A stretch of DNA of 64,000 nt from Imperialibacter roseus (GCF_032999765.1 NZ_CP136051.1:2208417-2272416), one strand, 5' to 3'. Positions 1-38,279 are shown, counted from the stretch's first letter. Notes: a model not told the origin generated them from the sequence alone. Program-made: numbers and translations.

Positions 1-987
1 GATATTTTCATGCTTTTGGCCCTTATCTACGACTCTCAGGCAGTTGAGCTTGTTAAAGAGAATGTCAGTGTAGGTACCAGCGAAAGCGTTACGTTCGCCG
101 TAGAAATGCTCGATATTATCCTCGAGGATGAATTGAAACCCAAGTTGTTCCCCGTTTTCGACGAACTCAAGCCCCACGACAGGCTGGGTCAGCTGAATGA
201 CTTTTACGCTCCTGAGGCTTTTAGCAGTTATGAAGACTTGCTCCTTTCCATAGTCAACAGGGATTACAACCATATAAGCAGGTGGACGAAGGCAGTTGCA
301 TTGTACAGGTTGTCCATGATCGATGAATCCAAGGTGTCGGCGGATCTTATCGCCAATCTTTTCAACCCTGATAGGCTCATACTTCAAACATCTGCCTGGA
401 TCATTTACCAAAAAGACAAGGCGGAGTATCAGCGTCACACCAGAAGGATACGGCCGGGTGTTAAGAAAGACCTGGATAGGGCCATAGTGCCGCCAACATT
501 TGTTGAGACGGAAGAGGATTTGCACATGAAGATGCTGCTCATTGAGAAAGCTGTGTTTGTGAAGGGATTGGATTTATTCAAAACAATCCCTGGCTCGGTG
601 TTAACGGACGTGGTAGACGCCTCCGAAGAAGTAAGAATGAAGGAGGGTGTAACCTTCATTAGCAAAGGAGATAACGGCAATGCACCAATTTACATTATTG
701 TAAAGGGGAGTGTGCTTGAACAAGACGACAATGGGCGCCAGAGAACACTCGGCAGTAGAGATGTGATCGGCTTCAACAAATTAGTTGAGACAGACCAATT
801 TGAATACAACTATACAACGACCAGCGAGGTGATCTTTTTGACTATTTCAATGGAGGCTCTTTTCGATTTGATGAGCAAAAATATTGAGATGGTTGAGGCA
901 ACACTCTTGTCGGTAAAGGATTCTGACCAGATCGAAGCAGAAGATGAAGTGATGGATGAAGAAAGACTGTTGCTTTTTAGTCAATAG
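1..987 (+). CDS. HEAT-like / cyclic nucleotide-binding domain protein, C-terminal part
   Basis: The reading frame is open to the window edge, so this is the last ~328 residues of a longer protein; the first ATG at 10 is probably internal. The N-terminal half is helical and HEAT-like. Roughly residues 190-305 look like a CRP-type cyclic nucleotide-binding beta-barrel, with the pattern L-x-x-V, EGVTFISKG, IYIIVKGSV, a short G-R turn and a final helix. In Bacteroidota such HEAT plus cNMP tails are often found on large MFS-like or nucleotide-translocase-like membrane proteins, but the part that would show this lies outside the window. No DNA-binding helix-turn-helix follows the barrel, so a transcription factor is unlikely. 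The next gene starts 55 bp downstream on the same strand, so co-transcription is possible but not shown. Confidence 0.7.
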   Translation, partial: DIFMLLALIYDSQAVELVKENVSVGTSESVTFAVEMLDIILEDELKPKLFPVFDELKPHDRLGQLNDFYAPEAFSSYEDLLLSIVNRDYNHISRWTKAVALYRLSMIDESKVSADLIANLFNPDRLILQTSAWIIYQKDKAEYQRHTRRIRPGVKKDLDRAIVPPTFVETEEDLHMKMLLIEKAVFVKGLDLFKTIPGSVLTDVVDASEEVRMKEGVTFISKGDNGNAPIYIIVKGSVLEQDDNGRQRTLGSRDVIGFNKLVETDQFEYNYTTTSEVIFLTISMEALFDLMSKNIEMVEATLLSVKDSDQIEAEDEVMDEERLLLFSQ

Positions 988-1042: not shown

Positions 1043-2539
1043 ATGGCAGTTGGAAAAGAAATTCTAATCAGTTTTTCCTCAGAAGATAACCATCCAAGGA
1101 TAGCGGGCGACAGGGGCTGGGTGACAAGCTTTTGTAAGTTCCTTACCACCCTTCTTACACAAATAATGAAGGAGGAACCTCATGTGAGAATGATAGACGA
1201 AAGTCAGCAGGATCCTGGTGAAATTGAGAAAGCAGCTGTTTTGATTGCCATATTGTCAAATAACTTCAAGGCAGACGGCAAACTGGTAAAGGGCATTTCT
1301 CACTTTGGTGTTAAGGCCACCGAAGATAAAAACCTGAGCGTTGCCGGGAAGGCAAGAATGTTTAAGGTATTAAAGCATCCTGTGGAAATTGACAGTGTCC
1401 TGCCCGAGTATGAGGAGATTTTGCCCTACGATCTGTTTCAGATTGATCCAATGACTGGAGAGGCACAGGAGTACACAAGGTATTTTGGATCCGAAGCGGA
1501 GAGAAGCTACTGGCTGAAACTGGTAGATATGTCATACGACATTTTCCAGATTCTTGACAAACTTGGATCAACCAAGAAGGCCACAAAGGACATAGTTCCC
1601 AAAGAGCGTACCGTTTACCTGGCGAGCACTGGTGTTGACATTCTTATTCAACGAGACATTATTAAAAGAGAGTTGTTGCGCCATGGCTACAGGGTGTTGC
1701 CGGAGCAGTCGCTCCCCAAGGAAGCCAAGCTCCTCGAAGCGATGGTAAAGTCAGATTTGGAAAAGTGCCGTTTGTCGATTCACTTGATTGGTGAGGATTA
1801 TGGTTACAAGCCAAAGGGCTCTGACCTTTCGATTGTAGATATACAGAACAAGATAGCATCGGAATATGTGCTGAAGGTAATCGAGCACAACAGTAAAAGT
1901 GCCGACAGAGAGCCTTTTTCGAGGCTGATCTGGCTTTCACCTGACATGGTCAATGTGTCGGAGAGGCAAAAGATTTTTATTGAGGACTTAAAGTCCGATG
2001 CCGCTGCTGTTGAAGAAGCCGAGGTGCTGCAAATTACCCTGCAAGAACTTAAATCCATTGTAAGGGAGGAACTGCTTACGGGGGGAAGGTTCAAAACCAG
2101 AGATCATTACGCCAGAGAGGATGAGGATAGCAAAGGAGGCAAAATGATTTATCTCATTTGCGATAAATCGGATGCTGAGGCAGCTCAGCCCATTGCGAAG
2201 GCACTTACAGCTAAAGGATGCGAGGTGATGACATCGCTTTTTGATGGTGACCTGATTGACTTACGCTATCTGCATCAGGAAAACCTGAGACGCTGTGATG
2301 CATCGCTGATATATTTCGGTAAAGCCAATCACCAATGGATTAAAGCCAAACTTCAGGATCTTTTGAAGGCGCCTGGATTTGGCAGAATTAAGCCTTTGAA
2401 GGCAAAGGCAATTTATGTAGCAGGGGAGGCCAAGGTAAAAGCTGAGGAATTTAAAGAGGAAGGTACCCTGATTTTAACCGGTAACGGCGAATTTAAGGCC
2501 GATTCACTGAAACCATTCCTGGAAAAAATTGAAAAGTAA
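1043..2539 (+). CDS. TIR-like / DUF4062-like three-module protein
   Basis: A 498-residue protein without signal peptide or membrane segment, so probably cytosolic. Three Rossmann-like modules are visible. Residues 5-75 read like a TIR domain (ILISFSSEDN, then GW-x-x-x-F-C and a hydrophobic VLIAILS strand), followed by a conserved-looking linker with PYDLFQIDP and YWLKLVDMSYDI. Residues 189-275 resemble DUF4062 (VYLAST..D....RD, CRLSIHLIGEDYG). Residues 367-440 form a third TIR-like unit (IYLICDKSDAEAA, RRCDASLIYFG, W-I-K-A-K-L). I cannot find a convincing catalytic glutamate of NAD-cleaving TIRs, so it may be a scaffold rather than an enzyme. The stop lies 3 bp before the nSTAND1-WD40 gene, which strongly suggests co-translation and a shared role. 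In other bacteria TIR-like and STAND genes are paired in signalling or defence; function here is inferred. Confidence 0.75.
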   Translation: MAVGKEILISFSSEDNHPRIAGDRGWVTSFCKFLTTLLTQIMKEEPHVRMIDESQQDPGEIEKAAVLIAILSNNFKADGKLVKGISHFGVKATEDKNLSVAGKARMFKVLKHPVEIDSVLPEYEEILPYDLFQIDPMTGEAQEYTRYFGSEAERSYWLKLVDMSYDIFQILDKLGSTKKATKDIVPKERTVYLASTGVDILIQRDIIKRELLRHGYRVLPEQSLPKEAKLLEAMVKSDLEKCRLSIHLIGEDYGYKPKGSDLSIVDIQNKIASEYVLKVIEHNSKSADREPFSRLIWLSPDMVNVSERQKIFIEDLKSDAAAVEEAEVLQITLQELKSIVREELLTGGRFKTRDHYAREDEDSKGGKMIYLICDKSDAEAAQPIAKALTAKGCEVMTSLFDGDLIDLRYLHQENLRRCDASLIYFGKANHQWIKAKLQDLLKAPGFGRIKPLKAKAIYVAGEAKVKAEEFKEEGTLILTGNGEFKADSLKPFLEKIEK

Positions 2540-2542
2540 ATT

Positions 2543-5500
2543 ATGAGTGCTAGCAACCTTACCCCCAATGAGTCCGATGGAAGACCTGAACAGGTTTCCA
2601 CAGGAGCCGTAACGAGAGGCGACACCACAACTCTCTTCAATCCGTTCCCTGGCCTTCGGCCCTTTGGCGTGGAGGAATCTCACCTTTTCTTTGGCCGTGA
2701 AGGCCAGAGTGACGAAGTGCTGGTAAAGCTGGCAGAAAACCGGTTTTCTGCGGTGCTGGGATCTTCAGGAAGCGGTAAATCGTCATTGATGTATTGTGGA
2801 TTGATTCCAACGCTCTATGGCGGATTCATGACACAGGCAGGCTCCAACTGGAAAATTGTGGTGTTGCGACCGGGCGGGGGGCCGATCGACAACCTGGCTG
2901 AGTCGCTGGTAGAAAAGGACGACGAATATGCAGGACTGGAAGAAGAAGAACGGCTGATAAGAAAGACAATCACCGCTACTGTTCTTAGAAGCAGTTCGCT
3001 CGGATTGGTTGAAGCAGTAAAGCAATTGAAAAAATCGGAAGATGAGAATATCCTGATCCTTGTCGATCAGTTTGAGGAACTTTTCCGGTATAAGAAGACT
3101 GAAAGCATGACGTCGTCTCAGGACGAGTCCTCTGCGTTCGTGAACCTTTTGATGGAGGCAGTGCACCAGTTTGATGAGCCCATTTATGTCACCATCACTA
3201 TGCGTTCAGACTTTATCGGTGAATGCGCTGTTTTTCCTGAGTTGACTCAGATGATCAACGACAGCCACTATCTGATTCCTCAAATGACAAGGGACCAGAA
3301 AAGGCTGGCGATTGAAGGCCCGGTGGCCGTGGGCGGGGGCACCATAGCACCTCGTTTGGTACAGCAGCTGTTGAACGACGTGGGAGACAACCCCGATCAG
3401 CTGCCCATCTTGCAGCACTCGTTAATGCGTACCTGGTCATTCTGGGCCGACAATCACAGGGAAGCCGAGGCAATGGACATTAGGCATTATAATGCCATCG
3501 GTACCCTGAAGGAAGCCTTGTCGCAGCATGCCAACGAGGCCTACGACATGCTTTCCAAACGGGAAAAGCAGATTTGCGAAACCATGTTCAAGGCGCTTAC
3601 CGAGCGTGGTTCTGAAAACCAGGGGATAAGAAGGCCAACCAAGCTAAGCGTCATCGCATCCATTGCCGGTGTAACCGAGGATGAGGTGTACCGGGTGGTC
3701 GATAAATTCCGGGAGCCGGGCAGGTCTTTACTGATGCCACCTCATGGCAAACAGCTCGAATCTGAGACTGTAATTGATATTTCGCATGAAAGCTTGATGC
3801 GCATCTGGACGAGGCTGAAGTCATGGCTGGATGAGGAAAGCCGTTCAGCAGAAATGTACCTTAAGCTGTCTGAATCGGCCGGAAGATACCAGGAAGGACG
3901 GGCCGGTCTGTGGAAAATGCCCGACTTGCAACTGGCACTCAACTGGCAGGAGGAGAACAGGCCTACGCTGGTGTGGGGTCAAAGGTATAACACAGCTTAC
4001 GAGCGCACGATTGTGTTCCTTGAGACGAGCAAGCGAGCCTACGAAACCGAGCAAAGAAACAAAGAGCTTCTACAGAAGAGGCAGATACGCCGGTCCAGGA
4101 TCTTTGCACTTGTGCTGGCTGGTGCTGCGCTGGTGTGTATTTTTATGATGATTTATGCGTTTATTTTGGCGGCTGAAGCGACCAAACAGACAGTCATAGC
4201 CGAACAACAGGCTGAGTTAGCACAGAAAAATGCCGATGAGGCTCAAATCCAATCGGAGGCAGCCCAGAAGTCCGCAAAAGAGGCTAACGATCAACGGGAA
4301 AAGGCCGAGATAGCCACGACCCAGGCGATTGAACAAAAAAACGAAGCAGATCAACAAAGAAGAAATGCGGAGGCTGCCACATTACTGGCTGAGGCTGCCA
4401 GAAAGGATGCAGTGATTGCACAAGATGAAGCCGTAAAGCAAGCAGAGATTGCCAACGAGCAAAAGGATCTTGCCACCGCTGCCAGAGTACAAGCGGACGA
4501 AGCGAGGAAAAATGCGGAAGATCTTCGTTACCAGGCCATTGCCCAGTCGATGGCGATTAAAACAGCTCAGGTAAAGGACACCACACTAAAGACATTGATT
4601 GCCATGCAAGCTTTCAACTTCTTTAGAGAGTACAGTGACAAACCTTACAACGGAGACATTTATGAAGGTTTGTACAACGCATGGAAAGGAGAAGAGGGAG
4701 AGAATGTAGTTAAGTGGGCTGGTCATACAGCTGGCGTAAGATCAGTGGTCTTTAGCAAGGACGGAAAAATCATGTATTCTGCAGGTGCCGATGGTAGGGT
4801 TTTGCGATGGGATATGACCAATGATAAAAGGGAGGGGATAGATTTACTTCCCAGGCCCAATTCCTCAGTCAACAGAGTGGTCGCTGTTAGCCCTGATGAA
4901 AGGTACGTGGCCGTGGGCAACGATGCACCCGATAATAATATTCAACTGATTGACCTTCGAAACCCGGATAGCCCCAAATTTTTGAAGGGACACAATGGTA
5001 TCGTGAACGACCTTGTGTTCTTTCCAGACGCCAGTGGTTTTGTTTCGGTGGGAGTTGATGGAAGTATTAAAAAGAGCGATTTTGCTACATTCACTTCAAT
5101 AGCTACACCTGGCGGGAAGATCGAAAAGATAGCAATTAGTCCGGATGGTAAGGTACTTGCTGCTGGCAGCGTTGACGGCAGCATATTGCTCTATGAATTA
5201 TCAAACAACAATTTGCTTGCAACTCTTAACGTAAAAACCGAGTCTCCGGTGACGTCACTTGCCTTTAGTGGAAATGGGCAATACCTGGCTTTTGGCGATT
5301 TGGCGGGTAAAATTACTATTCAGGATATTATTGCAAAGAAAACCCTGGCAGAGTTAAATGGACACGAAAGTAAAGTAGCGGATTTACGCTTCAACAATCT
5401 GAATACATTACTAGCGTCTGCAGGCTGGGATGGTACAGCCAAGCTTTGGGTGATGAAAGACATCTTTGACTTGCCCATTACTTTGAGGGATCACGGGAAA

Positions 5501-5725
5501 TATGTTAACTCTGTTTCATTCTCTCCCGATGGTCACAAATTGGCAACAGCATCCTTTGATAATTTTGTTCGGGTTTGGCCCACCCGACCAGATGAAATAG
5601 CTGACAAGCTTTGCCCTGATGTTGACAGAAATATGAATCAAACGGAGTGGAATCAATATGTAGGCGGTGATATCGAGTACGAGATTACGTGTATAGATTA
5701 TCCAAGTGGGGTTGAAAACAAATAG
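2543..5725 (+). CDS. nSTAND1 ATPase with transmembrane segment, coiled coil and WD40 propeller
   Basis: A 1060-residue STAND-class signalling ATPase. Residues 33-50 carry the typical nSTAND1 entry (NPFPGLRPF...FFGRE). Walker A is GSSGSGKSS at 73-81, Walker B is ILILVDQFEE at 170-179, ITMRSDFIG is at 218-226, and a winged-helix-like end has DISHESLMRIW near 412-422. A basic stretch (KRQIRRSR, 512-519) precedes one hydrophobic helix at about 519-543, then an alanine/glutamate-rich coiled coil (~545-680) and a WD40 beta-propeller (~705-1030). By the positive-inside rule the ATPase is cytosolic and the coiled coil and propeller are periplasmic, so the usual sensor propeller would read the envelope side. 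It follows the TIR-like gene by 3 bp and is followed at 1 bp by an outer-membrane barrel gene. STAND proteins usually oligomerise on ligand binding; the ligand is unknown. Confidence 0.88.
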   Translation: MSASNLTPNESDGRPEQVSTGAVTRGDTTTLFNPFPGLRPFGVEESHLFFGREGQSDEVLVKLAENRFSAVLGSSGSGKSSLMYCGLIPTLYGGFMTQAGSNWKIVVLRPGGGPIDNLAESLVEKDDEYAGLEEEERLIRKTITATVLRSSSLGLVEAVKQLKKSEDENILILVDQFEELFRYKKTESMTSSQDESSAFVNLLMEAVHQFDEPIYVTITMRSDFIGECAVFPELTQMINDSHYLIPQMTRDQKRLAIEGPVAVGGGTIAPRLVQQLLNDVGDNPDQLPILQHSLMRTWSFWADNHREAEAMDIRHYNAIGTLKEALSQHANEAYDMLSKREKQICETMFKALTERGSENQGIRRPTKLSVIASIAGVTEDEVYRVVDKFREPGRSLLMPPHGKQLESETVIDISHESLMRIWTRLKSWLDEESRSAEMYLKLSESAGRYQEGRAGLWKMPDLQLALNWQEENRPTLVWGQRYNTAYERTIVFLETSKRAYETEQRNKELLQKRQIRRSRIFALVLAGAALVCIFMMIYAFILAAEATKQTVIAEQQAELAQKNADEAQIQSEAAQKSAKEANDQREKAEIATTQAIEQKNEADQQRRNAEAATLLAEAARKDAVIAQDEAVKQAEIANEQKDLATAARVQADEARKNAEDLRYQAIAQSMAIKTAQVKDTTLKTLIAMQAFNFFREYSDKPYNGDIYEGLYNAWKGEEGENVVKWAGHTAGVRSVVFSKDGKIMYSAGADGRVLRWDMTNDKREGIDLLPRPNSSVNRVVAVSPDERYVAVGNDAPDNNIQLIDLRNPDSPKFLKGHNGIVNDLVFFPDASGFVSVGVDGSIKKSDFATFTSIATPGGKIEKIAISPDGKVLAAGSVDGSILLYELSNNNLLATLNVKTESPVTSLAFSGNGQYLAFGDLAGKITIQDIIAKKTLAELNGHESKVADLRFNNLNTLLASAGWDGTAKLWVMKDIFDLPITLRDHGKYVNSVSFSPDGHKLATASFDNFVRVWPTRPDEIADKLCPDVDRNMNQTEWNQYVGGDIEYEITCIDYPSGVENK

Positions 5726-5726
5726 T

Positions 5727-6794
5727 ATGAACCGAAAATTTAGTTTTTGCTGTCTATGGGTGACAGTAATGTGTGTCTTTTCAGCTATAACTGATGCAAG
5801 TGCTCAAACAACGGAGTGTACTCAGAAGCTGGCAAATGCGCAAGCGAGGTTTGATATAGGTAATCTACCTGGAATTCCGGAGGATCTAAAAGGTTGTATA
5901 GACTCGAAGAGCTTTTCTCCAGAACAGTCAATTCAAGCTCATAAGTTGATCACTTTGGTATACCTCTATCAGGATGATCAGGAAAGCGCTGACATTTGGA
6001 TGGCTAAGCTCCTGGCCGTCGACCCTGAACATAAGCTCGACCCATCTGCCGACCCCAACGAAATAATCTTACTGAAGGAAAAATTTCTTTATAAACCTAT
6101 TTTCAGGGTCAGTCTATCTATTTCTGGTAATCAGTCGACATATAGGGAGCTTACGAAATTTGGCCCCGGAAATTTGGAGTTCGATAAGGTAACGGCATCT
6201 CCGGGGATCGGTTTGGGAGGTTCAGCGCTGCTGGAGAGAGAGGTGTATCCCGGCGTTGATGTTGGAACAGGTATCTCTTTTCTAAGTCGTAGCTTTTCTA
6301 TTGAGAAAGAGTTGGTTTATGCTATTAATAAAATGACAGTGGAGGAAGCCGAGTCATGGCTTGAATTGCCTTTGTTTTTGAAATATACCTACTATGGGGA
6401 CGGCGACAACAAATGGAATCCATATGTGCTTGCTGGTGGGTCTTTGGGGTATATACTAAGTGGTAAGCTAGGTAGCCCTGAGCGATCCAATGAAGGAGCA
6501 AGCGTGACGGTTGGATCAGTTGATTTGGTTGCTCTTGAGCAAAGGAACAAGTTTAATTACTCGGCCATGATAGGTTTAGGAGCCAAGATTAGGCTAAAGA
6601 CCCATTTTTTTTTCTTGGAAGCCAAATACGTATATGGGCTGTCTAATCTAGTTAACGACGATAACCGATTTGCAGGTAGTTTAGAAACGTTATACTTACT
6701 TGGTTACGTAGACAGCAACTTTAGTCTGAATGGGCTGATGGCCACTTTTGGTTATCAAAGGTCAATTTACAATCCCAGAAAAATAAAAAAATAA
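5727..6794 (+). CDS. outer-membrane beta-barrel protein (PorT-like fold)
   Basis: The ATG at 5727, one base after the upstream stop, is preferred to a GTG at 5706 because it gives a clean signal peptide ending in ASA before QTTE; this makes 355 residues. After a short helical, TPR-like region (~30-115) comes a run of alternating amphipathic strands from ~130 to the end, with aromatic girdle residues and glycine turns (PYVLAGGSLGYIL, FNYSAMIGLGAKIRL). This matches the OMP_b-brl_2/PorT-type barrels of Bacteroidota. It would sit in the outer membrane, facing the predicted periplasmic coiled coil and WD40 propeller of the gene before it. It may be the outer-membrane partner or sensor of the STAND protein; that is inferred from near-overlapping genes only. 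Confidence 0.75.
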   Translation: MNRKFSFCCLWVTVMCVFSAITDASAQTTECTQKLANAQARFDIGNLPGIPEDLKGCIDSKSFSPEQSIQAHKLITLVYLYQDDQESADIWMAKLLAVDPEHKLDPSADPNEIILLKEKFLYKPIFRVSLSISGNQSTYRELTKFGPGNLEFDKVTASPGIGLGGSALLEREVYPGVDVGTGISFLSRSFSIEKELVYAINKMTVEEAESWLELPLFLKYTYYGDGDNKWNPYVLAGGSLGYILSGKLGSPERSNEGASVTVGSVDLVALEQRNKFNYSAMIGLGAKIRLKTHFFFLEAKYVYGLSNLVNDDNRFAGSLETLYLLGYVDSNFSLNGLMATFGYQRSIYNPRKIKK

Positions 6795-6806
6795 GCTGAA
6801 CCACCG

Positions 6807-8108
6807 ATGATGAAGAGAAGATTATTAGACTTGATGTTGTTGGGCGCCTTTACGTTCGGTTGCACTCCAGATCAATCCAGCCTTCCTGAGCCAGATAAGA
6901 TATTTATTAAGTACTATGGAGGTGCAAAGAGCGATGAGGCTGCTGATTTTTTGGTGGATGAGGAGGGAGATCTTCGCTACATCATTTTTGCAGCGAGTAA
7001 CAGCGAAGAAATAGTTGGTGAGAGGGGAGCGAGTAACACTGATTTTGTTTTGATTTTTGCTGACAAGGCAGGTAATCAGATTAATTCCATTAGGTCTTAT
7101 TTTCCAGACACGGGGGGTGAGAGTGTCGTATGTAAGCCAAAAAGAATTATCAAAGCTAACGCAGGTGGCTTTGTGATGGCAGGAACTATTGAGTATGGAG
7201 GACAGAGCGATATGTTTGTTGCGAAGGTGGATGCTGATGGTAATTTGATTGGTACGCCATGGTTCAATAACAGTGCTCAAGTAGAAGTGGCGAATGATAT
7301 TGTGGAGATCAGTGATGGTTTTTTAGTAGTGGGCTCTATTGGAACGGGTAATTCGAAGGATGCTTTGATGGTCAAACTTGGATTGAGTGTGGAAGAGGTG
7401 ATTTGGACAAAGGAAGATGGCTATGCCAATGTTTCTGACGAGGGTATTTCGCTGGTGCCAACCCAAAATGGAAATAGGGCACTGATGATAGTAAATACTA
7501 ACCAAGCTATAGATTCAGAGGGTGGTGTGCCAAATGGGAATTTGGCAGTCTACGACTTTGAAACGAATACTGCACAGGCACCGAATCCCGGGTTGCTTGG
7601 TCTTCTTGGTCTTGAGGAACTCAATGAGGTGGCAGTTCGAGTGAGGAAGATTTCTGATAGGGAGTTTTACATAGTTGGTAACTCAGTAGGCGTTAATTCT
7701 ACGGTAACCAAACCGTTTTTTTTAAGATTTATTAACAGCTCGTCCTCGGCAAATATTGTTACCAATAGCATTTTCGATGAACTGGCCGGAGTAACTGTGG
7801 AAGATGTTTCTCGCACAGCAAAAGGCGATTTCCTGATTGTTGGAAGTGGGGTTGTTAATTTAAGTAATGGGCTCCAAATGCTCCTTTGTAAATTAGATCC
7901 TTTCGGCGTGTTGGACAAAGGGTTTGGTAGTGGCGGGAGCGGTTTTCCGGCATACCAGTTTGGGTCATTGGGTGATGAGAGTGGAGCAGCTGTTTCTGAG
8001 CTTCCTGATGGTGGGATTGGCTTACTCGGCACAATTGCACTTGACAATAATGCTAATACACTTATTGGACTCATCAAAACCAATAGAAATGGAGTATTGA
8101 GAAAATAA
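6807..8108 (+). CDS. predicted lipoprotein with beta-propeller-like repeats
   Basis: A 433-residue protein starting with a charged n-region, a hydrophobic stretch and a lipobox-like GAFTFGC, so lipidation at Cys19 is likely. Two ATGs are adjacent (6807, 6810). The mature part has repeated units with the pattern GG...SDEA.DF...EEGD, GGFVMAGT, DGFLVVGSIG and DGGIGLLGT, spaced about 45-60 residues apart. This is the rhythm of delta-60-type or beta-propeller repeats in Bacteroidota surface proteins. It begins 12 bp after the barrel gene and is probably the last gene of the TIR-STAND-barrel operon; a promoter-like sequence follows before the giant adhesin. No catalytic residues were recognised. 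A role as surface or periplasmic ligand binder is plausible but not shown. Confidence 0.6.
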   Translation: MMKRRLLDLMLLGAFTFGCTPDQSSLPEPDKIFIKYYGGAKSDEAADFLVDEEGDLRYIIFAASNSEEIVGERGASNTDFVLIFADKAGNQINSIRSYFPDTGGESVVCKPKRIIKANAGGFVMAGTIEYGGQSDMFVAKVDADGNLIGTPWFNNSAQVEVANDIVEISDGFLVVGSIGTGNSKDALMVKLGLSVEEVIWTKEDGYANVSDEGISLVPTQNGNRALMIVNTNQAIDSEGGVPNGNLAVYDFETNTAQAPNPGLLGLLGLEELNEVAVRVRKISDREFYIVGNSVGVNSTVTKPFFLRFINSSSSANIVTNSIFDELAGVTVEDVSRTAKGDFLIVGSGVVNLSNGLQMLLCKLDPFGVLDKGFGSGGSGFPAYQFGSLGDESGAAVSELPDGGIGLLGTIALDNNANTLIGLIKTNRNGVLRK

Positions 8109-8175: not shown

Positions 8176-11100
8176 ATGAGAAAGTTATACTTCAACATTA
8201 GCCTGCTATTTTTTATTGGTTTTATTTTTCTCTCCTCATTCAGTATTAGAGCGCAGGCTCCCCTTTTTGTAAGTGCTGTGGTGGAGAACGCTTCGCCCTC
8301 CAACGTCGTGGTTACTTTTGATGATAACATGGTTGAAACTGATGGCGACGGCTGGTCCATTTCTGGGGTGTCGGGCTCGCCTACAATTAATTCTGTTTCT
8401 GCTAGTGGAGTCGATATTACCTTTACACTTTCCGGCCCGGTTGCTGAGGGAGATATTGTGACTATATCTTACGATGATGGCACTGGAGATGCCACAGACG
8501 ACGATCCAACGCCCTTAGCGAGCTTTGGGCCAAGTGGAGTAACAAACAACGTGGACGGAACAGGCCCGGCTTTTTCGAGCGCAGTTGTAGAGAATGCCGC
8601 ACCCGATGAGTTGAAGGTGAGCTTTGACGAGGCAGTTAATTTGACCGTGACAGACGGGTTTTCGATAAGTACGTCTTCATCAGGCGCAGTTATCACAGGA
8701 ATCGGTGGGGGTAATGGCACCACAGAAATCACTTTTACACTTGATATTCCGATTGAAGAGGGAGAGACTGTTACAGTTACTTTTGATGGACTTTCTGGTT
8801 CTCCGGATGCAGCAGATGGTATAGGCAATCCTGTTCAGGACTTTTCTGCTCAGGCCGTAACAAACAACGTGGATGGAACAGGCCCGGCTTTTTCGAGCGC
8901 AGTTGTAGAGAATGCCGCACCCGATGAGTTGAAGGTGAGCTTTGACGAGGCAGTTAATTTGACCGTGACAGACGGGTTTTCGATAAGTACGTCTTCATCA
9001 GGCGCAGTTATCACAGGAGTCGGTGGGGGTAATGGCACCACAGAAATCACTTTTACACTTGATATTCCGATTGAAGAGGGAGAGACTGTTACAGTTACTT
9101 TTGATGGACTTTCTGGTTCTCCGGATGCAGCAGATGGTATAGGCAATCCTGTTCAGGATTTTTCTACTCAGGCCGTAACAAACAACGTGGATGGAACAGG
9201 CCCGGCTTTTTCGAGCGCAGTTGTAGAGAATGCCGCACCCGATGAGTTGAAGGTGAGCTTTGACGAGGCAGTTAATTTGACCGTGACAGACGGGTTTTCG
9301 ATAAGTACGTCTTCATCAGGCGCAGTTATCACAGGAATCGGTGGGGGTAATGGCACCACAGAAATCACTTTTACACTTGATATTCCGATTGAAGAGGGAG
9401 AGACTGTTACAGTTACTTTTGATGGACTTTCTGGTTCTCCGGATGCAGCAGATGGTATCGGCAATCCTGTTCAGGACTTTTCTGCTCAGGCCGTAACAAA
9501 CAACGTGGATGGAACAGCTCCGATGTTTGATAATGCTGTAGTAGAGGATGCTGACCGAGACGCTCTGGTAGTAACCTTCGATGAATCCGTAGTGCTCACT
9601 GATGAGTCTGGGTTTTCTCTGAACTCTGATGGTTCGCCTGTTTCGATAACGGGCGTAAGTGGAAGCGGGACACTCGTTCTGACCTTTTCGCTGGATCGTG
9701 ATATTAACGCTGTAGAAGCATTGACCCTTGGCTATAATGACGCAGCCGGAGATGCTAGGGATGCTGGAGGAAATGCCCTGGTTACATTTGGAGTGCCCGA
9801 AAGTGTTACAAATAATGTTTTAAATTCTGCTCCCGTGCTGGATGCGGGTCAATCACCGGCGCTTTCAAATATTGACGAGGATGATCTAACAAGTGCTGGC
9901 AATACAATAGCTGAAATAATTGTTGATGGATCTATCACCGATCCTGAGGGGGCGGTCGAGGCAATAGCCGTGACCGTTGTAGATAATACTAATGGTGTAT
10001 GGCAGTATTCTTTAGATAATGGCGTATCGTGGAATCTATTCAGCGGAACCACTGGGTCGAGTGTTGACATTACCACCTCGGCAAGACTGCTGGACGGAAC
10101 TTTAGTTGGAGCTGGAACTCACAAGGTAAGATTTGTTCCAGATGCAGACTATAATGGTGATGCGATTTTTACTTTCAAGGCTTGGGATAGAACAGGGGCA
10201 GGTGTGGTGGGAGGCACGATCGATGCAACAACTGGAGGTGGGACGACAGCGTTTTCGACGTTGGATGATGTTGCCACTATAACTATCAACCCGATCAATG
10301 ATGCCCCAGCGTTAACAGGCACAGTGGCTTTCACAACTATTGATGAAGATGATATCAGTAATTCCGGTACATTAATTTCGTCATTGATAACCAGTTTTGC
10401 GGGAAACTACTCTGATTCAGATGCAGGTGCTTTGGAAGGTTTAGCCGTAACAGGAGTAAGCACTACCAATGGCACTTGGGAGTTTACACTTGACGGCATT
10501 GGGTGGACTTCCTTGGCCCCAACCGACGACACAAATGCTGTCTTGCTGGCGTCGGATGGAAACAATGCTATCCGATTTGTCCCGTCGGCTGATTACAATG
10601 GTTCAACCGGAAACACCATTAGTGTAAGGGCATGGGATCAGACTTCTGGCTCAGATGGTGGCACAACCAATGTAAGTGTCAATGGAGGCACAACCGCATT
10701 TAGCTCTGGCATTGCTGCCACAGCGAGTATTACAGTAAATGCCCTCAATGACGCTCCCACATTTAATGTGGCACTTGGGAACCAAAATGTAAACTCTGAT
10801 GCCGGGGCAGTTTCTCTGCCGTTATTTATTGATCCTGCAACACAAGTTGTAACCGGGCCTGCTGACGAAAATACGCAAACCTTAGATGATTTTACCGTAT
10901 CAATATTCAGCGACCCCAGTGGCGTTCTTGTACCTGCTTCTGCGGACATCGACAATTCAGGCACATTGACATATTCTGTTGTTAGTCAAAAACAAGGGGT
11001 GGCCACAATTAACGTGTACATAGTTGATGATGGCCCAACTGGCGGTGGAAACGTGAATACTTCCCAACTTTACCAGTTTACCATTACTGTAACCGATAAT

Positions 11101-14100
11101 CAGCCACCTGTCATTACTAGCCGGACGCCATCGAATGGGGCCTCTGGTCAGGCGGCCCGAAACACTATACAGTTTGTATTTAATGAACAGGTTACTGTCG
11201 GTACCGGGAATATCGAAATCAGAGACAACTCCAATACCAATCTGCTTACAAGCGTTTCGGTCACTGATGCGACCAAAGTTCAGTTGACTGGCGGGAATAC
11301 GGTCGATGTAACTTTTGATAATTACATGCTCAAGAATGGCAAAACCTACTATGTAATTATTGAAAATGGTACATTTTTAGACGTTAATAGCTCCAACTCA
11401 TTTGCCCTGACGAGTCCAACTGGATGGACTTTCACTATGTCAGCTGCAAACAGTTCAGCTCCAAACCTGCTGTACACAATTCCGGCGAATGGGACGCTTG
11501 ATGTAGGAGTGACGCAGGATATAATATTGGTGTTTGACGAGGTCATGCGTAAGAATGCTGGTGCAAGTAGCTATGTTTTTGTAGACAAGGAAACATCTTT
11601 GAGTGGCCCGGTCATAAGTAATGATGTAATTAGAATAAACCCTCGGGCTAATGATGATTCTGATTTTGGGCTAATTGATAATGCGACCACGGGGAGCAAT
11701 AGAGTGGTTATCAACCTTGACCAGAGTCCGGTAGTACTGACTAGCGGAGTAAATGGCACCCTGCCATTTACTTTTGACGAAAATTCGTTTTATAGTATAC
11801 AAGTTGACAATGATGCCTTTGAAGATATTCAAGATGATAATTCGCCTGCGATTCCGAAGTTTTATTTCAAAACAGTAGCTGATGGCACGCCACCAACACT
11901 CGCTGCTGTAAACGGAGGAGCCTCGCCAACCGAACCATTCCAGCCAGTCGATGGCGCTACGAGTGTGTCAGTTGCCACGCCAATAATCTATGCAACGTTC
12001 AATGAGCCTGTAGAAAAGGGAAGTGGGAACATTAAAATCTATGCGGATCTTAGCCCTTCAGATTTGCTTATTTCAGATGTGCCAATCGGCAACGGCGCCT
12101 TCACAGTGAGTGGTCGGCAGTTGGCTATTAACCTTTCTTCCCTTGGAGTTACCCTGTCTGGGGGAATTACTTACTATGTTAATATCGAGAACAGCGCAGT
12201 CAAAGATTTGTTTAATAACTCCTTTGCAGGTATATCCAATAGCACAACCTGGAATTTCACTACGGCCAGCGATGGGGTGGCACCAGTAGTTAGCACCCTG
12301 AGCCCAACTGACAATACTGCGGAGGTTGGCTTGAGTCCAACTTTGACCGTTACGTTTAGTGAGCCGGTCAAGAAGTTTGCCACGCCGGGCACCAAGTATT
12401 TAAGGATTTACTATGGAGCTAACGACAATTTGTTCGCACAGGTTGATGCGAATAGTGTGACAATTGATGCTAATCAAGCAACTTTTTCTGCCGGATCTGC
12501 ATTTCCGGGATTTACTGATTTTTATATCAAGATAGATAACGGGGCATTTTTTGATTACAGTACTCCAGCAAATAATTTTGCTGGAATATCCAGTAAGACA
12601 GTATGGAATTTTAAGACTACTGCTTCCGGCGATGTTACTCCTCCATTGGCTAATTTTGGTAGTGCCACACCGGCGGATGGCAGTACCATAATCACAAATA
12701 CACCTTCGTTTTCCATCAATTTTAATGAAGCGATAACGGAAGGTTCCGGAACGATTTCACTTTTCAATGCTGCTGGTGACGTTCTCACGGATTCCTGGGA
12801 TGTTCTTACAGACGTTAATGTTAGTGGGTCTACAGCGACATTTCAACTAAATATCCCTTCCCTTGCCTACGGTGACAGCTACTACATTCAATGGCCTGCT
12901 GGTACTTTTGAAGACCTGCTGGGTAATTCTGTCGCTGCCAATAGCAATAGCACAAATTGGAACTTTTCGGTGGCAAATTCTACGGTAGTAACGCCAGCTT
13001 CCGTGTTGCTTTGTTCAAATGGAGATTATTCAAGTATTGGTACTATTACTATTGCAGAAGGGTCTGCTGCGGGCTTTTCGGGTGGGGGAACGTACACTAT
13101 ATCTCTCCCTGTTGACTTTGAGTTTGACGTTACTTCGATACCAGATTTTACCGGGGGAACCTACATTGACATTTCAGCTCCAACCGTTGTTAGCTTGACG
13201 AAGAGCGCTTTTACGTTCAGTTATTCTGGATCAAACTCGGCGGCCAGTGATGTTATTAGCATCGATGGGCTTTTGGCTAAGTTTACTGGCATAGCAGACA
13301 TCACTACAGCTGCTTATCGGTCTGCCGGGACGGCGACTCAGACTGGGAATGCAGCAGCTGACTTGCAGAGTAATATTGACCTTCAGGGAGTAGCGGTGGC
13401 CAGCCCAAGTCTAACGTATGCGAGTTATACAGACTATTATGGAGAAAGCTTCACAAATGGTGAAATATATAATATTGTTAACGTAAACGTTTATGACGGC
13501 TATACTTTTAATGCGGTTGACCCGGTAGTGACTTTGAACGGCGCTAATTCTAACGTTCGTTGGTATTCCACTGAAGATTTGGCGACCGAAGTAACATCGC
13601 TTTACCAGAATGTTGCCCCTTCTATGGGAGACCTCGGTTTAGACGACGATGGAGATAGCGGCAACGGGTACTCTCCCAACAATCGTTTTGATTCAGAGTA
13701 TTGGTGGGGAACAAGTGTAGCGCATGATCCGTTTGGCATCCACACCTGGTGGGTAACCAACACAAACGCCAATGGCTGTGAAAGTGATCCCGTTAAGGTA
13801 AGGGTTGTTAGCTGGGAAATTTTTGGATACGGCCCGACTGCTTCCACTCAACTGGATGAAGATCAATATACCTACTATATTTATGATACACCGGCTAATC
13901 ATACTGTAACTTGGTCGGGCCCCGGTCTTGAGTCGCCGATTGCATTCGACAGTGAATATACCGTGTACGGCAGCTACAAGTGGATAAAATTTAGACCGTT
14001 GACAGCCGGATTGGGTGTTCACACTCTTACAGCGACTCTGAAGAATGTATTAACTGGCGAAACATATTCCAGAAATTTTCAGGTTACTGTACTTCCGTCA

Positions 14101-17100
14101 ACTTCGATTTTGACGTCGGGAGATACCGAGCCTTGTCCACCTATTTCGTTCGCCGGAACGGTAGTTAACGGAACGGACGATTATGAAATTAATATCTCTG
14201 ATTTAACTACGCCTAACTATATTTTTCACAAGGTTGAGGTATATAGCAATAATACGTCAACTATTTTATCATCATCCAATGTATATGCAGTTATTGGTAG
14301 TGGTGGTTCTGAAGTTCATATTCCGGCCGATGATATTTTCAATTCGCTCAATCAGCTAGGGGATTATTATGACCCAAATTTAGGAGCATATTCATCGGTA
14401 TATGGGAATATTACCAAGTGGCGAATTGACAAGACTGGGCTTACCTCGGGTTATTACCAAATAAGGAGATATGTCACTGATAAGGGAGACCTCGATCCTG
14501 AAGAGACCTTGATTAATCCATCTAAGATTTTTGGGTCTGAATGGATTTATTTAAACACGGCTCCGACGGTGTCTATCTCTAACCTTAGCACAGATAACTG
14601 TGAAAGTGATTCGCCGATAGACTTGGATGTTGTTGTTGATGGCATATCGTATTCAAATCCAACTGGCAAATTTTACTATCAGGTTCATAATGGTGTTGGG
14701 TTTGGGGCAGAGCAACTGCTTGATGGAGGTGGGGCCACACTTAACTTTGGAACCTTGGGTGCAGGCAGATACAATTTGGTATATGTGTCAAACTCAAGTG
14801 AGCAGGCCGGGACGGGTTGTATTGGCAAGAGTGCCGCAAAGGAGTTTTATATTTACCCCATTCCGGCACTGCCAAGTGTGCAAGCGGGTGCCTCCATTCT
14901 TAATCATGGTGGGTTAGTCAGTGGCGACTACTTGTTTGAGTATTGCAAAGGGGACGTTGTAGACGACGTGGTGGCGCCGCCATTGGGAACTGGATTCTAT
15001 ACTTGGTCGTCGGATCTTGCCGGCAACAATGAATTGGGAACCTCAAGTACGCTAGAAGCCACAACTATTTTTGGGGGAACAAATACCCCAAACACCACCA
15101 GTAGGACTTTTTATTTGCGGGAAACGAGCAGCAACGGGTGCGCCTCATTACCAAGGAAGTTTACAATCAATGTATATGATGTTCCTGGTACACCAATAGT
15201 GATAGAATCTGGCGGGGATCACATTTTTAATCAGGGGGGAGGCTCCTACCTGATTGAGTATTGTGATCTAGAAGATGTAGATGATATAGTTTTGGATGCT
15301 ACATTCCTTCAAACAGGCTTACCAGCAGGTAAGACGTCGTACTTCCAATGGTATGAAGATGATGGGTTTGGAAATGCTGACTATGGCAGCCCGCTGTTAG
15401 TTGGTAATATTTTGACACCAGGAGACATGGGATTAAATGCAACGGGTGGGAACTCAGGAGCGTCCAGCCAAATATTTCATGTCGTTCAGTACAATGATAG
15501 GGACAATACACCTGGTTTCGTAGGTTGTGCCAGTGCTGCTACCAAGGTGACTATAAGCGTTTTCACAACACCAACTGAACCTGTCGCTACGGCCGACAAT
15601 GGATTCAGAATTCAATATTATGCTGTTAAGAACTCCACATCGCTTACTGCCGATGGAGTGACTGGAATCAGCTTTCTTAACACACCGTCTGGAACGTCTG
15701 CGGTATACAGATGGTATCAGGACGATGGCACAGGAAGCGCACCGAGCTCTTTCATCAGCGAAAGCCCAATTCTTACTGTCAGCGATGCATCGCTGAACGG
15801 GCTGAACCTGGCAACACCAGGCACTTACTATTTCTGGGTAAGTCAGGCTACGAGCAAGAACTTTGTGTCATCCTTTCAAGGGTGTGAGAGTGATGCAGTT
15901 AGAGTCGCTATCACTATTTTTGATGCACCTACGACCCCGGCTCTTACCGGTTCGACTCAAACATCTTATAGTTATTGTACCGCAGATGACTACTCGAACG
16001 ATACATATACGATTGACGTTGCTGTTCCTCCTGGCTACCTGGGGTCGCAAGGAGCCCAGGAATACAGGTGGTATCGATCTGATGTCTCGGGAAATAAGAT
16101 CAATCTGAATCCAGTTTTCATTGGTGCCAACCCTACCGCCCAACAGCTTGGGATTACCGGGCTAAGCAGTACCCACACAAGGTATTACATGGCCACGAAT
16201 GTTACCGACATAATTGGTGTTAATGGCGACCAGTTTGCTGGAGGGGAAAGCGCTGGTGTGGTTATCGAGTTTAATTTTTTCAAAACACCGACAGCTATAG
16301 ATATTCCCGTTGCAGCAAGAACCTATTACTATTGTGAGGACGAAGTGGATGATACAACTATCACACTGCTTACGGCCAATAGCAGTACGAATGGTGTGAC
16401 GTTCAAGTGGTATTACGGAGATGACCTTGTTTATCAGGAAGTCGACGAAGATGCCAGTGCAGCCGCTGCCAGTACAGTAAATCCAATTTCTGATTTTGAA
16501 TTATCGCCAGGTGTGCCGGTAATTGACCCAACAGTCGACGGCGTATATGACTTTACTGTCACACAAACAGATGCTGGTTGCGAGAGCGCTATAACCTCAG
16601 CCTCAACCATTCGCATAAATATCTTCGCCAGACCAATTACACCAACTCCGTCTAATGCGAACCCAAGTGTCTGTTTGGGGCAGTTTGACACTCCTTTTGT
16701 TTTAGACGTGACAGGTAAGTTGCCAGGAGCTCAATTGAACTGGTATGATGCTGAAGGCACATTTCTAGCTAATACAGACACATATAGTCCAGATATTAAC
16801 CTTCCAGCAGGAAACTACACGTACAGAGTAACCCAGACGACTAATCGAATAGGTACTGATGGATCAGTTTTCCCAGGATGTGAATCAGAGTCAGCGGAAA
16901 TTACATATCAGGTATTTGACATTGGTGCTGCCCCCGAGGCGACAGGGCTTCTGGTAAATGGCCAGTACATATATGAGTATTGCGTTGGTGATGACATACT
17001 TGATATGGAAATTGTTGCCCCGGATCCTTCGATTACCTATCGGTGGTATAGTGATGAATCCCGTACCACCTTGGTTGGAGATAAGCCAGAATTGGCACCG

Positions 17101-20100
17101 CCTGGCGTCAATAATACCAAAGATTTTGACAGGACTTATTACGTCTTGAAGTCTAGCTCTGATAATGGATGCATTTCGGAGGTTACCGAGGTGCGAGTGA
17201 TAGTGAATGCGTTACCATCTCTAAGCTTCACTCAAAATAACATTGCAGGAAATATAGCTGTTTGCGTTAACGCAGCGCCGGTGGTGCTTAGTGCGCAAGA
17301 TGGTACGGGTACTTTCTTCGGAAATGGCGTAATCGATAATGGGGATGGCACTGCTACTTTTGACCCTCTTGGAGCTATAGACTCACTTGGCATAAGCGAC
17401 CCACAGCTACTTAAGGAGGCTGTGGTAGATACCATTTGGTTGGAACATACCAGCAGCCTTCAATTCGTTTCGGGAGAAGGATGCTACAATTCCGTTTTCA
17501 GGCTTATTACAATCAATCCTCTTCCAGAAGTGAACTTTTTCTCTGATGGTAATTTTGAGTTTGAAGACTACAACTTTACTATTTGCGTTAATGCCGGAAC
17601 TATTTCATTAATAGGCAACCCGAGCGGCGGGGTCTTCACTGGCCCTGGCATTACTGCAACTACTTCTGGAGCACGGTTTGACCCTCTTAGTGCCAGAACA
17701 GAAGACGGAGCGGGATTATATGGCCCCGCTACAACGTACACTATCAAGTATGAGTACACTAATCCGTCAACATTATGTTCAAACAGTGTAGAGAAACAAA
17801 TTACTGTTTTGCCCCAGCCTGAAATAGACTTTAGCATTAATGGCGGTTGCTCGGGAGAGCCTGTGGACTTTGGTGCGTTAGTTAGCAATGAAGTTGACTT
17901 GTCAGGGATTTCAACCCTGATATGGGATTTTGGAGACGAATCGGACAAATATGAATCTACTTCGTCAGCCGACAGGACGGTGACGCACGCTTTCAAAATC
18001 ACCCTTCCCAATGCAACTCAGCAAGATTTCCAGGTGAGTTTAACAGTAGTAAGTGTAGATGGCTGCTCAAGTACTTTCTCCAAAAGTGTATCGATAGGCT
18101 CCAGCCCAACTCCAAGATTTGCCTGGTCAGGAATTATTGAGAACCAACCCACAGTTTTTGAGATTGACGATCCAGGCATAAATATTCAGAATCTCGCAAA
18201 TGTGACTTTCCAGCTTTATAGCGGCGACGAATTGCTGTTTGTTGAGAGCAGAGATAGGAATCCTGCTCTGACCGACGCTGCAGCTCAGCGGGCCTATTTG
18301 CAAGGTAGCATCACAACAACTCTACCAAGTGGCGGCACTTACCGGGGGGTTCTGAGTTTGCGTTCAGTTAACCAGTGTTTCGTTTCTTTGGAAAGGGATG
18401 TTCAGATATTGGATGTTAAAACAGTTACGGCAGATCAACCCTATTTGGCTACTTTCGATTCAGGGCCAGACGGATGGTTCGCTGACAATACCTTTAATGA
18501 TGTGCCTTTGCTTCCTGGAGTGTCGAAATTTGAGTTGGCGTCACGTCCAAACTCCTGGGAGAATGCCGTGCCTGGCGGAAGCATCCTCAACGATGAAGGC
18601 CTGTCAAAAGGATGGGTAACGAACGCTGACGGAAATTACAACACTGAAGAAAAGTCATGGGTTTACAGTCCCGCTTTTGATATATCTGCCCTTCTTCGCC
18701 CAATGGTCAAATTCAATTTGATGTACGACTTTGATAGTAGAAAGGACGGAGTTGTTCTTCAGTACTCAACTGATAACGGTAAAACCTGGCCCACTTTAGG
18801 TCTCTACGACGGAGGAATTGACGAGGCGACTGGTATCAATTGGTATACCCTGGAGGGAATAGTGTCCGACCCAGGGGGCCAAGATGATCAGGGGGGTACC
18901 GATAGAGTTGGCTGGGCTGGTTCAACAGATGAACAAGGCATAAATTATTCAGAGGCAAGGCATAAGTTAGATGAAATTGCAGGGAACCGATCCTCTGTTA
19001 GATTTAGGTTTGCGCTCGGTTCAGACAACTCAGTCGATAGCAAAAGCGACAATCCATTGACTGATGAAGAGGGGTTTGCTTTTGATAATTTTTGGATAGG
19101 AGAAAGAAGTAAACTCGTTTTGTTGGAGAAATTTACGTCAACGACCAGCGAAACAAGCCGCTCAGTTGATGAAAAGATTAAGGGACTTTTGGAAAACCCC
19201 TCTATTAATAACAATGACGTGATAGTTCTTGATTATCACACAGAGTTTAAAAAGACGGCAAGCGATATTGATCCTTTTAATCAGGTGAATAAAGCTGACC
19301 CGGGAGCTAGGGTTCTTTTCTATGGAATCAACAGAGTACCTTTGTCAATAATAGCGGGCAATCTGTCAGAGGGCACTTTTAACGCAAGTACTACCTCCGA
19401 CGTTCCTTATTCGGAGTTAACATTGTCCAAATCTTCCTTGATTGATCCAGAGGTTGCTATTTCGATAGAACAATTGCCATCAGAAGCTAAAGTGCTTTCC
19501 CTAGCCGTTTCATATAGCAAGACGGGTCTTAGATTACCAGAGGATGCAGAGCATAGGCTTTATGTCGCGGTAATAGAACGAACTGAAGAATATCAAGGCA
19601 ATCTTTATTCTAATATTGTAAGAAAGATTCTACCTGATGGAAACGGAATTAGGGTCGAAAACCTACGGACTCTTGATGGAGTTCAGACTATAAATGTCAC
19701 GCCATGGGAAATAAGTGGAAAATTGGTAAAAGATCCTGAAGAGTTGTCGGTTGTCGCTTTTATACAAAGCAACAACAGCAAGCTGGTCTATCAATCTGCA
19801 ATACTCGACATCGTGGGCAAAGAAGCGAATGCCACCGGCGTCGACCTCCCGGGCGAAATAGCCTCATCCTACGCTCTGTACCCGAACCCGGCTAATACAG
19901 AAGTGGGTGTCAGGTTTGATAGTCAGCTGAACAATGACTTTGAATGGAGGCTGATTGATCAGGCGGGAGCTATAATTTCCAATGGCAGAGTGCAGAAGGG
20001 TAGTGAAGGGGTAACACTAGATACAAGGTCTGTGCCCAGTGGCATGTACTTTGTGATCATCAGCAACGAGAATGCGATGTTTGAGCCCAAGAAGCTGTTG

Positions 20101-30601: not shown

Positions 30602-30626
30602 TGCGTATATAGGATTGAATCCTATT

Positions 30627-35879: not shown

Positions 35880-35911
35880 CTGTATAAAATTTGTTTTTCA
35901 GCGGCCACCGG

Positions 35912-35937
35912 TTCGCCGGAGCGATCGGTCCGCCGAA
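35912..35937. repeat. GC-rich imperfect inverted repeat
   Basis: TTCGCCGGA (35912-35920) and TCCGCCGAA (35929-35937) pair with a single C:C mismatch around an 8-base loop. It lies in the 155-bp spacer between the PorP/SprF gene and the PorE-like gene, about 33 bp before the latter's start. No T-tract follows on the minus strand, so it is not an ordinary terminator; it may be an operator or a leader hairpin. Confidence 0.5.
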
Positions 35938-36034
35938 GCGGGAATAGCTCAAATCGCTTTGAAATGAAAGTTACTTGCTCTACGATTTTATTCATTTCCG
36001 ATGTTTATCGCTCTCCTTATGGCTATTTCATGTC

Positions 36035-38277: not shown

Positions 38278-38279
38278 GT

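Follow-up and report, generated by a model that had tools for sequence, protein, structure and literature searches.

The window analysed here is a stretch of 64,000 nucleotides from Imperialibacter roseus (GCF_032999765.1, NZ_CP136051.1:2208417-2272416), the replicon of which is a complete genome of 6.75 Mb, and our subject is a gene set at its beginning, in which an nSTAND1-WD40 NTPase adjoins an outer-membrane barrel protein. Four open reading frames (ORFs), all on the + strand (1043-2539, 2543-5725, 5727-6794 and 6807-8108), are separated by gaps of 3, 1 and 12 bp and encode a triple TIR-like protein, the STAND NTPase, the barrel protein and a lipoprotein; the barrel gene starts at ATG 5727 rather than at GTG 5706 chosen by the ORF caller, which overlaps the STAND gene. 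A previous reading made from the sequence alone (the sequence-only reading) had described these genes as one envelope-spanning unit with the barrel and the lipoprotein as its new element. The ORFs and their gaps were confirmed, and the conserved order of the genes, which recurs in dozens of genomes, supports a unit of this kind. In its extent, however, that set fell short, as it lacked a transporter-like gene and a giant substrate of the type IX secretion system (T9SS): the boundaries 1043-8108 have to be widened to take in the gene that ends at 987 and the giant gene (8176-20112), both of which belong to the conserved set, and the conserved block appears to comprise six genes. The features, in window positions, are as follows.

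10..987, + strand: transporter-like gene, C-terminal 325 residues of a 1083-residue product, recognised by family profile; the gene begins 2264 bp ahead of the window (L057:14153-17404)
1043..2539, + strand: triple TIR-like protein, 498 residues (Pfam, motif comparison)
2543..5725, + strand: nSTAND1 NTPase, transmembrane (TM) helix, helical linker and WD40 propeller, 1060 residues
2642..3898, + strand: nSTAND1 NTPase domain, residues 34-452, with Walker A GSSGSGKS and Walker B LILVDQFEE
4112..4168, + strand: single TM helix, residues 524-542
4187..4570, + strand: long helix with Ala at every seventh residue, residues 549-676, predicted periplasmic (model, low confidence)
4712..5581, + strand: seven-bladed WD40 propeller, residues 724-1013, predicted periplasmic
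5727..6794, + strand: outer-membrane protein, 355 residues, with signal peptide, the N-terminal domain termed NDOM and an 8-stranded barrel (Pfam and model)
5802..6116, + strand: NDOM, TPR-like helical periplasmic domain, residues 26-130, two conserved Cys
6807..8108, + strand: beta-propeller lipoprotein, 433 residues, invariant Cys19
8176..20112, + strand: giant secreted surface protein, 3978 residues, Ig-like repeats
19876..20103, + strand: T9SS type A C-terminal sorting domain (Por_Secre_tail / TIGR04183)

The gene order was derived by searching the barrel protein in 291 genomes of the order, with subsequent retrieval and analysis of 20-kb regions. In loci of Cytophagales and Bacteroidales the recurrent order is NTT/HEAT/cNMP-like, triple TIR-like, nSTAND1-WD40, barrel, lipoprotein and large secreted protein, with median gaps of 5 bp between TIR and STAND genes (n=89; at most 60 bp in 82), 5 bp between STAND and barrel genes (n=103; at most 60 bp in 95), 1 bp between barrel and lipoprotein genes (n=96; at most 60 bp in 93) and 55 bp from the lipoprotein gene to the next large ORF. 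Since this order recurs with short gaps in dozens of genomes, the set is not a product of chance. The STAND family was found in 80 of the 291 genomes, and a strong full-length small barrel in 63. The comparison of gene order across Cytophagales, proposed earlier as a check on whether the STAND gene mostly lacks the barrel, gave the opposite picture: 62 of these 63 small-barrel genomes also have STAND, and an NDOM outer-membrane protein adjoins STAND in 127 of 150 loci, which were gathered by two partly overlapping, not independent, sampling routes. The next gene after STAND in these loci encodes a small barrel in 105 (barrel type), a TonB-dependent receptor in 22 (receptor type) and neither in 16, a contig edge following in the remaining 7. 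Among 395 genomes drawn from the phylum, the STAND family was present in 14 and NDOM in 21, so that the distribution of both is concentrated in certain clades and not universal. OmpH and a gene for 185 residues recur upstream in 12-14 loci of the family, the neighbours in the window's own genome being OmpH, rhomboid-like and HDAC-like genes; such recurrence fits vertical inheritance within the family. This genome contains no full-length paralogue of the window STAND gene elsewhere. The transcript start was not placed, because the Bacteroidota -33/-7 promoter had no match in locus L057 and matches at chance level alone in the window. One further locus (L167) has a single STAND gene flanked by two barrel pairs and two oppositely oriented lipoprotein pairs, with a GAF/class III cyclase gene adjoining.

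The STAND protein of the window matches nSTAND1 with 329.9 bits against a cut-off of 27.1 (E 4e-98) and, additionally, WD40 (Pfam). Walker A is intact in 147 of 148 members of the family and Walker B (D[QR][FWL]E) in 148 of 148, and by its motifs the window NTPase is intact. A TM segment is present in nearly all members; in the window it is preceded by five K/R and zero D/E within 12 residues, and a single strong TM segment preceded by an excess of K/R is found in each of the 33 members aligned. From this segment and the positive-inside charge bias we infer that the NTPase is cytosolic and the WD40 propeller periplasmic. The earlier assignment of the four products to cytosol, inner membrane, outer membrane and lipid anchor is supported as far as the span of the envelope is concerned; it had overlooked the predicted periplasmic position of the WD40 domain. 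A helical linker of about 170 residues, with Ala at each seventh position, lies between the TM segment and WD40; the corresponding span is 156-191 residues in barrel types, with a median of 190 in receptor types. The Ala-heptad regularity was observed in 116 of 127 STANDs with an outer-membrane partner versus 1 of 7 solo ones, a contrast confounded by ancestry. Linker length as a diagnostic of such a partner was ruled out, the solo STANDs from outside Bacteroidota having 169-201 residues (one exception, 34). In the AlphaFold model the NTPase and the seven-bladed propeller are confident and the long helix (549-676) is of low confidence; the best multi-domain structural match is full-length Apaf-1. 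In the FastTree phylogeny, a branch of 100% local support separates barrel-type STANDs from receptor-type and solo ones, the tree being unrooted and the direction of change inferred.

The barrel protein matches OMP_b-brl_2 (Pfam, E 1e-13), and its model (mean predicted local distance difference test, pLDDT, 92) consists of helices plus eight strands, the barrel resembling OmpA, OprG and OmpW. The candidate role of a PorP/SprF-like partner of T9SS was discarded, as the modelled barrel is 8-stranded and OmpA/OmpW-like. The first ~105 mature residues form the TPR-like helical NDOM with its two conserved Cys, for which a profile search of the PDB returned no match. A profile made of NDOM only matched the N-termini of 19 proteins of TonB-dependent-receptor size (850-908 residues), all 19 encoded in a STAND locus, and Plug or barrel domains identified such receptors in all three NDOM receptors scanned, one of them from a metagenome-assembled genome (MAG) of Acidobacteriota. 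Because two unrelated outer-membrane barrels carry NDOM beside the same STAND, the type of barrel appears to be exchangeable while the periplasmic NDOM is retained. In the two Acidobacteriota genomes with NDOM, it is likewise found on receptor-sized proteins; as a control, six genomes (Nostocales, Verrucomicrobia, Planctomycetes and others) having STAND without an outer-membrane partner lack NDOM. Genomes more distant within the phylum encode NDOM proteins directly after Hanks-type kinases, in which the kinase domain is followed by a TM segment and by repeats read by eye as PEGA, a PP2C gene often preceding, or after divergent nSTAND1-TM-WD40 proteins. As NDOM proteins adjoin STAND, Hanks kinases and these divergent proteins, the domain is best read as the partner, in the envelope, of signalling enzymes located in the inner membrane. 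The kinase loci (L197, L198, L199, L200, L205, L209), several of them with PP2C phosphatase genes in front, represent a parallel gene pair of envelope signalling. A 552-residue TM-coil-WD40 protein devoid of the STAND NTPase lies beside an NDOM receptor in one locus (L211:8509-10167), the product either of gene breakage or of reduction to a smaller form.

The barrel shares the 8-stranded fold with the small barrels OmpA, OmpX and OmpW and matches PorT/SprT weakly, below the cut-off, but differs from all of these by its TPR-like N-terminal domain and by its linkage to STAND. FecA-FecR-FecI is the familiar architecture of a TonB-dependent transducer in cell-surface signalling. The receptor-type loci resemble it in that a receptor of the outer membrane, bearing a periplasmic domain at its N-terminus, adjoins an inner-membrane signalling protein; here, however, that domain is TPR-like NDOM and not STN (none was reported on the three NDOM receptors scanned), and the partner is a STAND NTPase instead of an anti-sigma factor. 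The profile of NDOM also resembles TssQ of the Bacteroidota type VI secretion system T6SSiii (E 0.002, below the cut-off), which belongs to the membrane complex of that system and, unlike NDOM, has its anchor in the inner membrane (PMC10781749); among the neighbours of the module, no gene was recognised as T6SS. This weak resemblance, the long helical linker with its outer-membrane partner and the presence of a T9SS substrate in the unit could fit a structural or assembly role, the set being a physical tether between inner and outer membranes or a secretion helper for the giant protein. We regard this as quite improbable, given that a tether needs neither an NTPase with intact Walker motifs nor a transporter-like partner, that the modelled barrel is small and no translocon, and that occurrence is patchy.

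The TIR-like protein is predicted to be cytosolic and has three TIR-like domains: TIR1 (about residues 1-170), DUF4062 (191-265) and TIR3 (373-452). DUF4062 scores 28.7 bits against a cut-off of 24.7, TIR_2 remains below its threshold (Pfam), and a profile search of the PDB with the TIR alignment gave weak matches only. SxWCxxE, the TIR NADase motif, occurs in TIR1 of none of the 72 barrel-type TIR genes (the window reads FKADGKLVKGI); it is present in several receptor-type or unlinked relatives (L149, L154, L158, L159, L160 and L163), and TIR1 retains it in relatives from Nostocales, Acidobacteriota, Proteobacteria, Sediminibacterium and Mucilaginibacter, the last two of which are receptor-type versions. 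The DUF4062 domain of the window reads SIVDIQN, with Asp and Gln where the Glu of a TE.E type is expected (the correspondence to E97 of KpSwz being judged by motif and not by alignment to KpSwz), and in TIR3 nearly all aligned rows show Lys in place of the Glu. The TIR gene itself is absent from 33 of 105 barrel loci. Judged by these residues, the window protein is probably a catalytically dead pseudo-enzyme; a TIR NADase output for the barrel clade was ruled out on motif grounds, and the catalytic role given to this protein in the sequence-only reading could not be upheld. Eight genomes (G019, G064, G078, G144, G173, G235, G274 and G280) have two STAND copies, and where the loci of both were read, the TIR gene lies beside one copy and is absent from the other.

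The same evidence bears on an anti-phage or cell-suicide function, in which an attack sensed at the outer membrane would trigger the TIR/DUF4062 NADase. TonB-dependent receptors are commonly phage receptors, and the Sediminibacterium and Mucilaginibacter versions keep the catalytic motif of TIR1 intact, but this motif and, in many loci, the whole TIR gene are missing from the barrel type. Moreover, no convincing PADLOC defence family was detected in five module proteins, neither a defence island nor a known-defence neighbourhood was found at the window locus, and the chromosomal context is fixed within the family, so that the anti-phage role suggested earlier gained no support and seems to us very unlikely. 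In its favour, a preprint reports that DUF4062 acts in antiphage defence as an NADase of TIR-like type; there, the Swarozyc protein has its own auxiliary domain for binding the phage portal and requires Glu97 (PMC13174449). The window protein is similar to Swarozyc in its DUF4062 domain above the Pfam cut-off and differs by D/Q in the stretch of the expected Glu, the STAND partner and the envelope components. An ancestral TIR-STAND pair acting as an NADase switch is nevertheless plausible by analogy, because DUF4062 is reported as an NADase also in TEP1, where it adjoins a NACHT NTPase and WD40 repeats (PMC13174449).

The remaining members of the set are a transporter-like protein, a lipoprotein and the giant. 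The family profile of the first matches ADP/ATP carriers of plastids and bacteria (NTT1, E 9e-17; another, 2e-15) as well as HEAT arrays and the cyclic-nucleotide (cNMP) domain of cGMP kinase (E 1e-28), and its gene adjoins TIR or STAND in most loci; the product is predicted to be an NTT-like transporter/HEAT/cNMP-like inner-membrane protein with putative nucleotide transport. Control by cAMP through the cNMP domain was not supported, as the phosphate-binding cassette GE..R[ST]A with its Arg is absent from all 98 such proteins in spite of the matching fold profile and of one locus with a class III cyclase neighbour. SpoIIE-type phosphatases, with HAMP or a two-component-regulator propeller, are encoded between the transporter-like and TIR genes in two loci (L111:6581-8584, L143:5342-8554). 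The lipoprotein has no Pfam family above the cut-off, its family profile matching the CylK beta-propeller (E 5e-40); in the 46 lipoproteins aligned, an N-terminal Cys occupies the lipobox position and is followed in most by F[IV]K.[YF]G. A large ORF follows in most loci, and among the complete ones of at least 800 residues, 24 of 27 end with a YPNP-type sorting domain. The window giant passes TIGR04183 with 30.9 bits against a cut-off of 23, and SprA is encoded in its own genome (SprA_N, 542 bits); with a type A sorting domain and T9SS in the genome, it qualifies by sequence as a T9SS substrate. Inside its gene, three near-identical 318-bp tandem copies (8539-9517, 98% match) mark a likely site of copy-number change.

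The position of the giant and the lipoprotein within the conserved unit, and the fact that barrel, lipoprotein and giant genes stay linked even where STAND has relocated, allow the opposite direction of action: the STAND ATPase, its Walker motifs being intact, would move the linker and propeller and thereby govern how the giant is assembled, displayed or released, acting through the barrel and the lipoprotein. STAND NTPases are, however, known as switches and not as motors, receptor versions lack the lipoprotein, and the occurrence of NDOM beside Hanks kinases favours sensing; we consider such inside-out control unlikely.

Conserved linkage, the exchange of partners on a conserved NDOM, the intact NTPase, the bias around the TM segment and the T9SS substrate together argue for a trans-envelope signalling module leading from surface protein, lipoprotein and barrel to STAND, a proposal to which we give roughly even chances; the module probably senses something outside the cell. 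The giant protein and the propeller lipoprotein would form or modulate an external sensor, the surface protein receiving a ligand or a mechanical load. The signal may then pass through the barrel and NDOM to the periplasmic WD40 propeller, presumably docked to NDOM, and travel down the long helix to free the cytosolic NTPase for nucleotide exchange and oligomerisation, in the manner of Apaf-1-like switches. In loci that encode it, the triple TIR-like protein would be a scaffold or adaptor and not an NADase, and the NTT/HEAT/cNMP-like protein a membrane co-factor with a degenerate cyclic-nucleotide site; phospho-signalling is suggested as the output by the SpoIIE-type phosphatase genes that adjoin the module in Bacteroidales.

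Several points weigh against this proposal. WD40 domains are usually cytosolic, and the model confidence is ~50 in the first half of the long helix. STAND relatives that have no outer-membrane partner share the TM segment and a ~175-residue linker, so the linker length is apparently ancestral and no proof of bridging. The loci are mostly from MAGs and partly redundant, in one MAG family (f15) the STAND gene is separated from those for barrel, lipoprotein and giant, and the direction of the signal is not fixed by anatomy. As to topology, contacts and direction, we infer outside-in signalling in preference to the rivals considered above.

In its full form, the proposal is that a STAND NTPase reads the whole Gram-negative envelope by means of a periplasmic WD40 propeller docked to the TPR-like NDOM of a barrel or receptor, that this docking domain is common with Hanks-kinase systems, and that an ancestral NADase TIR output was kept in some receptor-type loci and lost in the barrel type; we hold it to be evenly balanced between right and wrong. 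STAND switches such as Apaf-1, plant NLRs and bacterial Avs are known as sensors that work in the cytosol. The window protein is similar to the Apaf-1/TEP1 type in combining a STAND NTPase with a WD40 sensor and an adjoining DUF4062, but in the present module DUF4062/TIR forms a protein of its own that lacks the canonical catalytic motif, and the predicted place of the sensor is across the membrane, paired with an outer-membrane protein. The parts of the module are thus of known kinds, the new element being the pairing of STAND with an outer-membrane protein via a dedicated domain. Its nSTAND1 domain is of the kind found in the NTPases of conflict systems, and the passages that use this term in the literature searched name no partner for it in the outer membrane or the periplasm (PMC8195603 for the term). 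In agreement with the sequence-only reading, the arrangement is not known as a named system: no description, and no paper linking nSTAND1 with an outer-membrane partner, was found in the literature searched, subscription literature being largely outside the search, and that on the CHU_10xx genes of C. hutchinsonii does not touch the cluster. If the proposal is true, it adds a new class of outer-membrane-to-cytosol signalling, extends the STAND switch class to the cell surface, gives Bacteroidota a further route beside TonB transducers, and makes NDOM a portable docking domain common to STAND and Ser/Thr-kinase systems. The module also presents a TIR/DUF4062 partner apparently reduced from enzyme to scaffold, or lost. 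The set is present in cultivated strains, so that direct testing is possible.

Elsewhere in the window, 30615-33548 encodes a 977-residue TPR protein with a CHAT protease-like C-terminus (by eye). The adjacent region on the - strand (33549-41894) encodes a 1204-residue protein with several near-identical repeats of ~65 residues, whose C-terminus resembles, by eye, an S74-like tail-fibre chaperone. Genes for a small secreted protein and for two further products, one PorP/SprF-like and one OmpA/PD40-like, come next, the whole being a second surface system.
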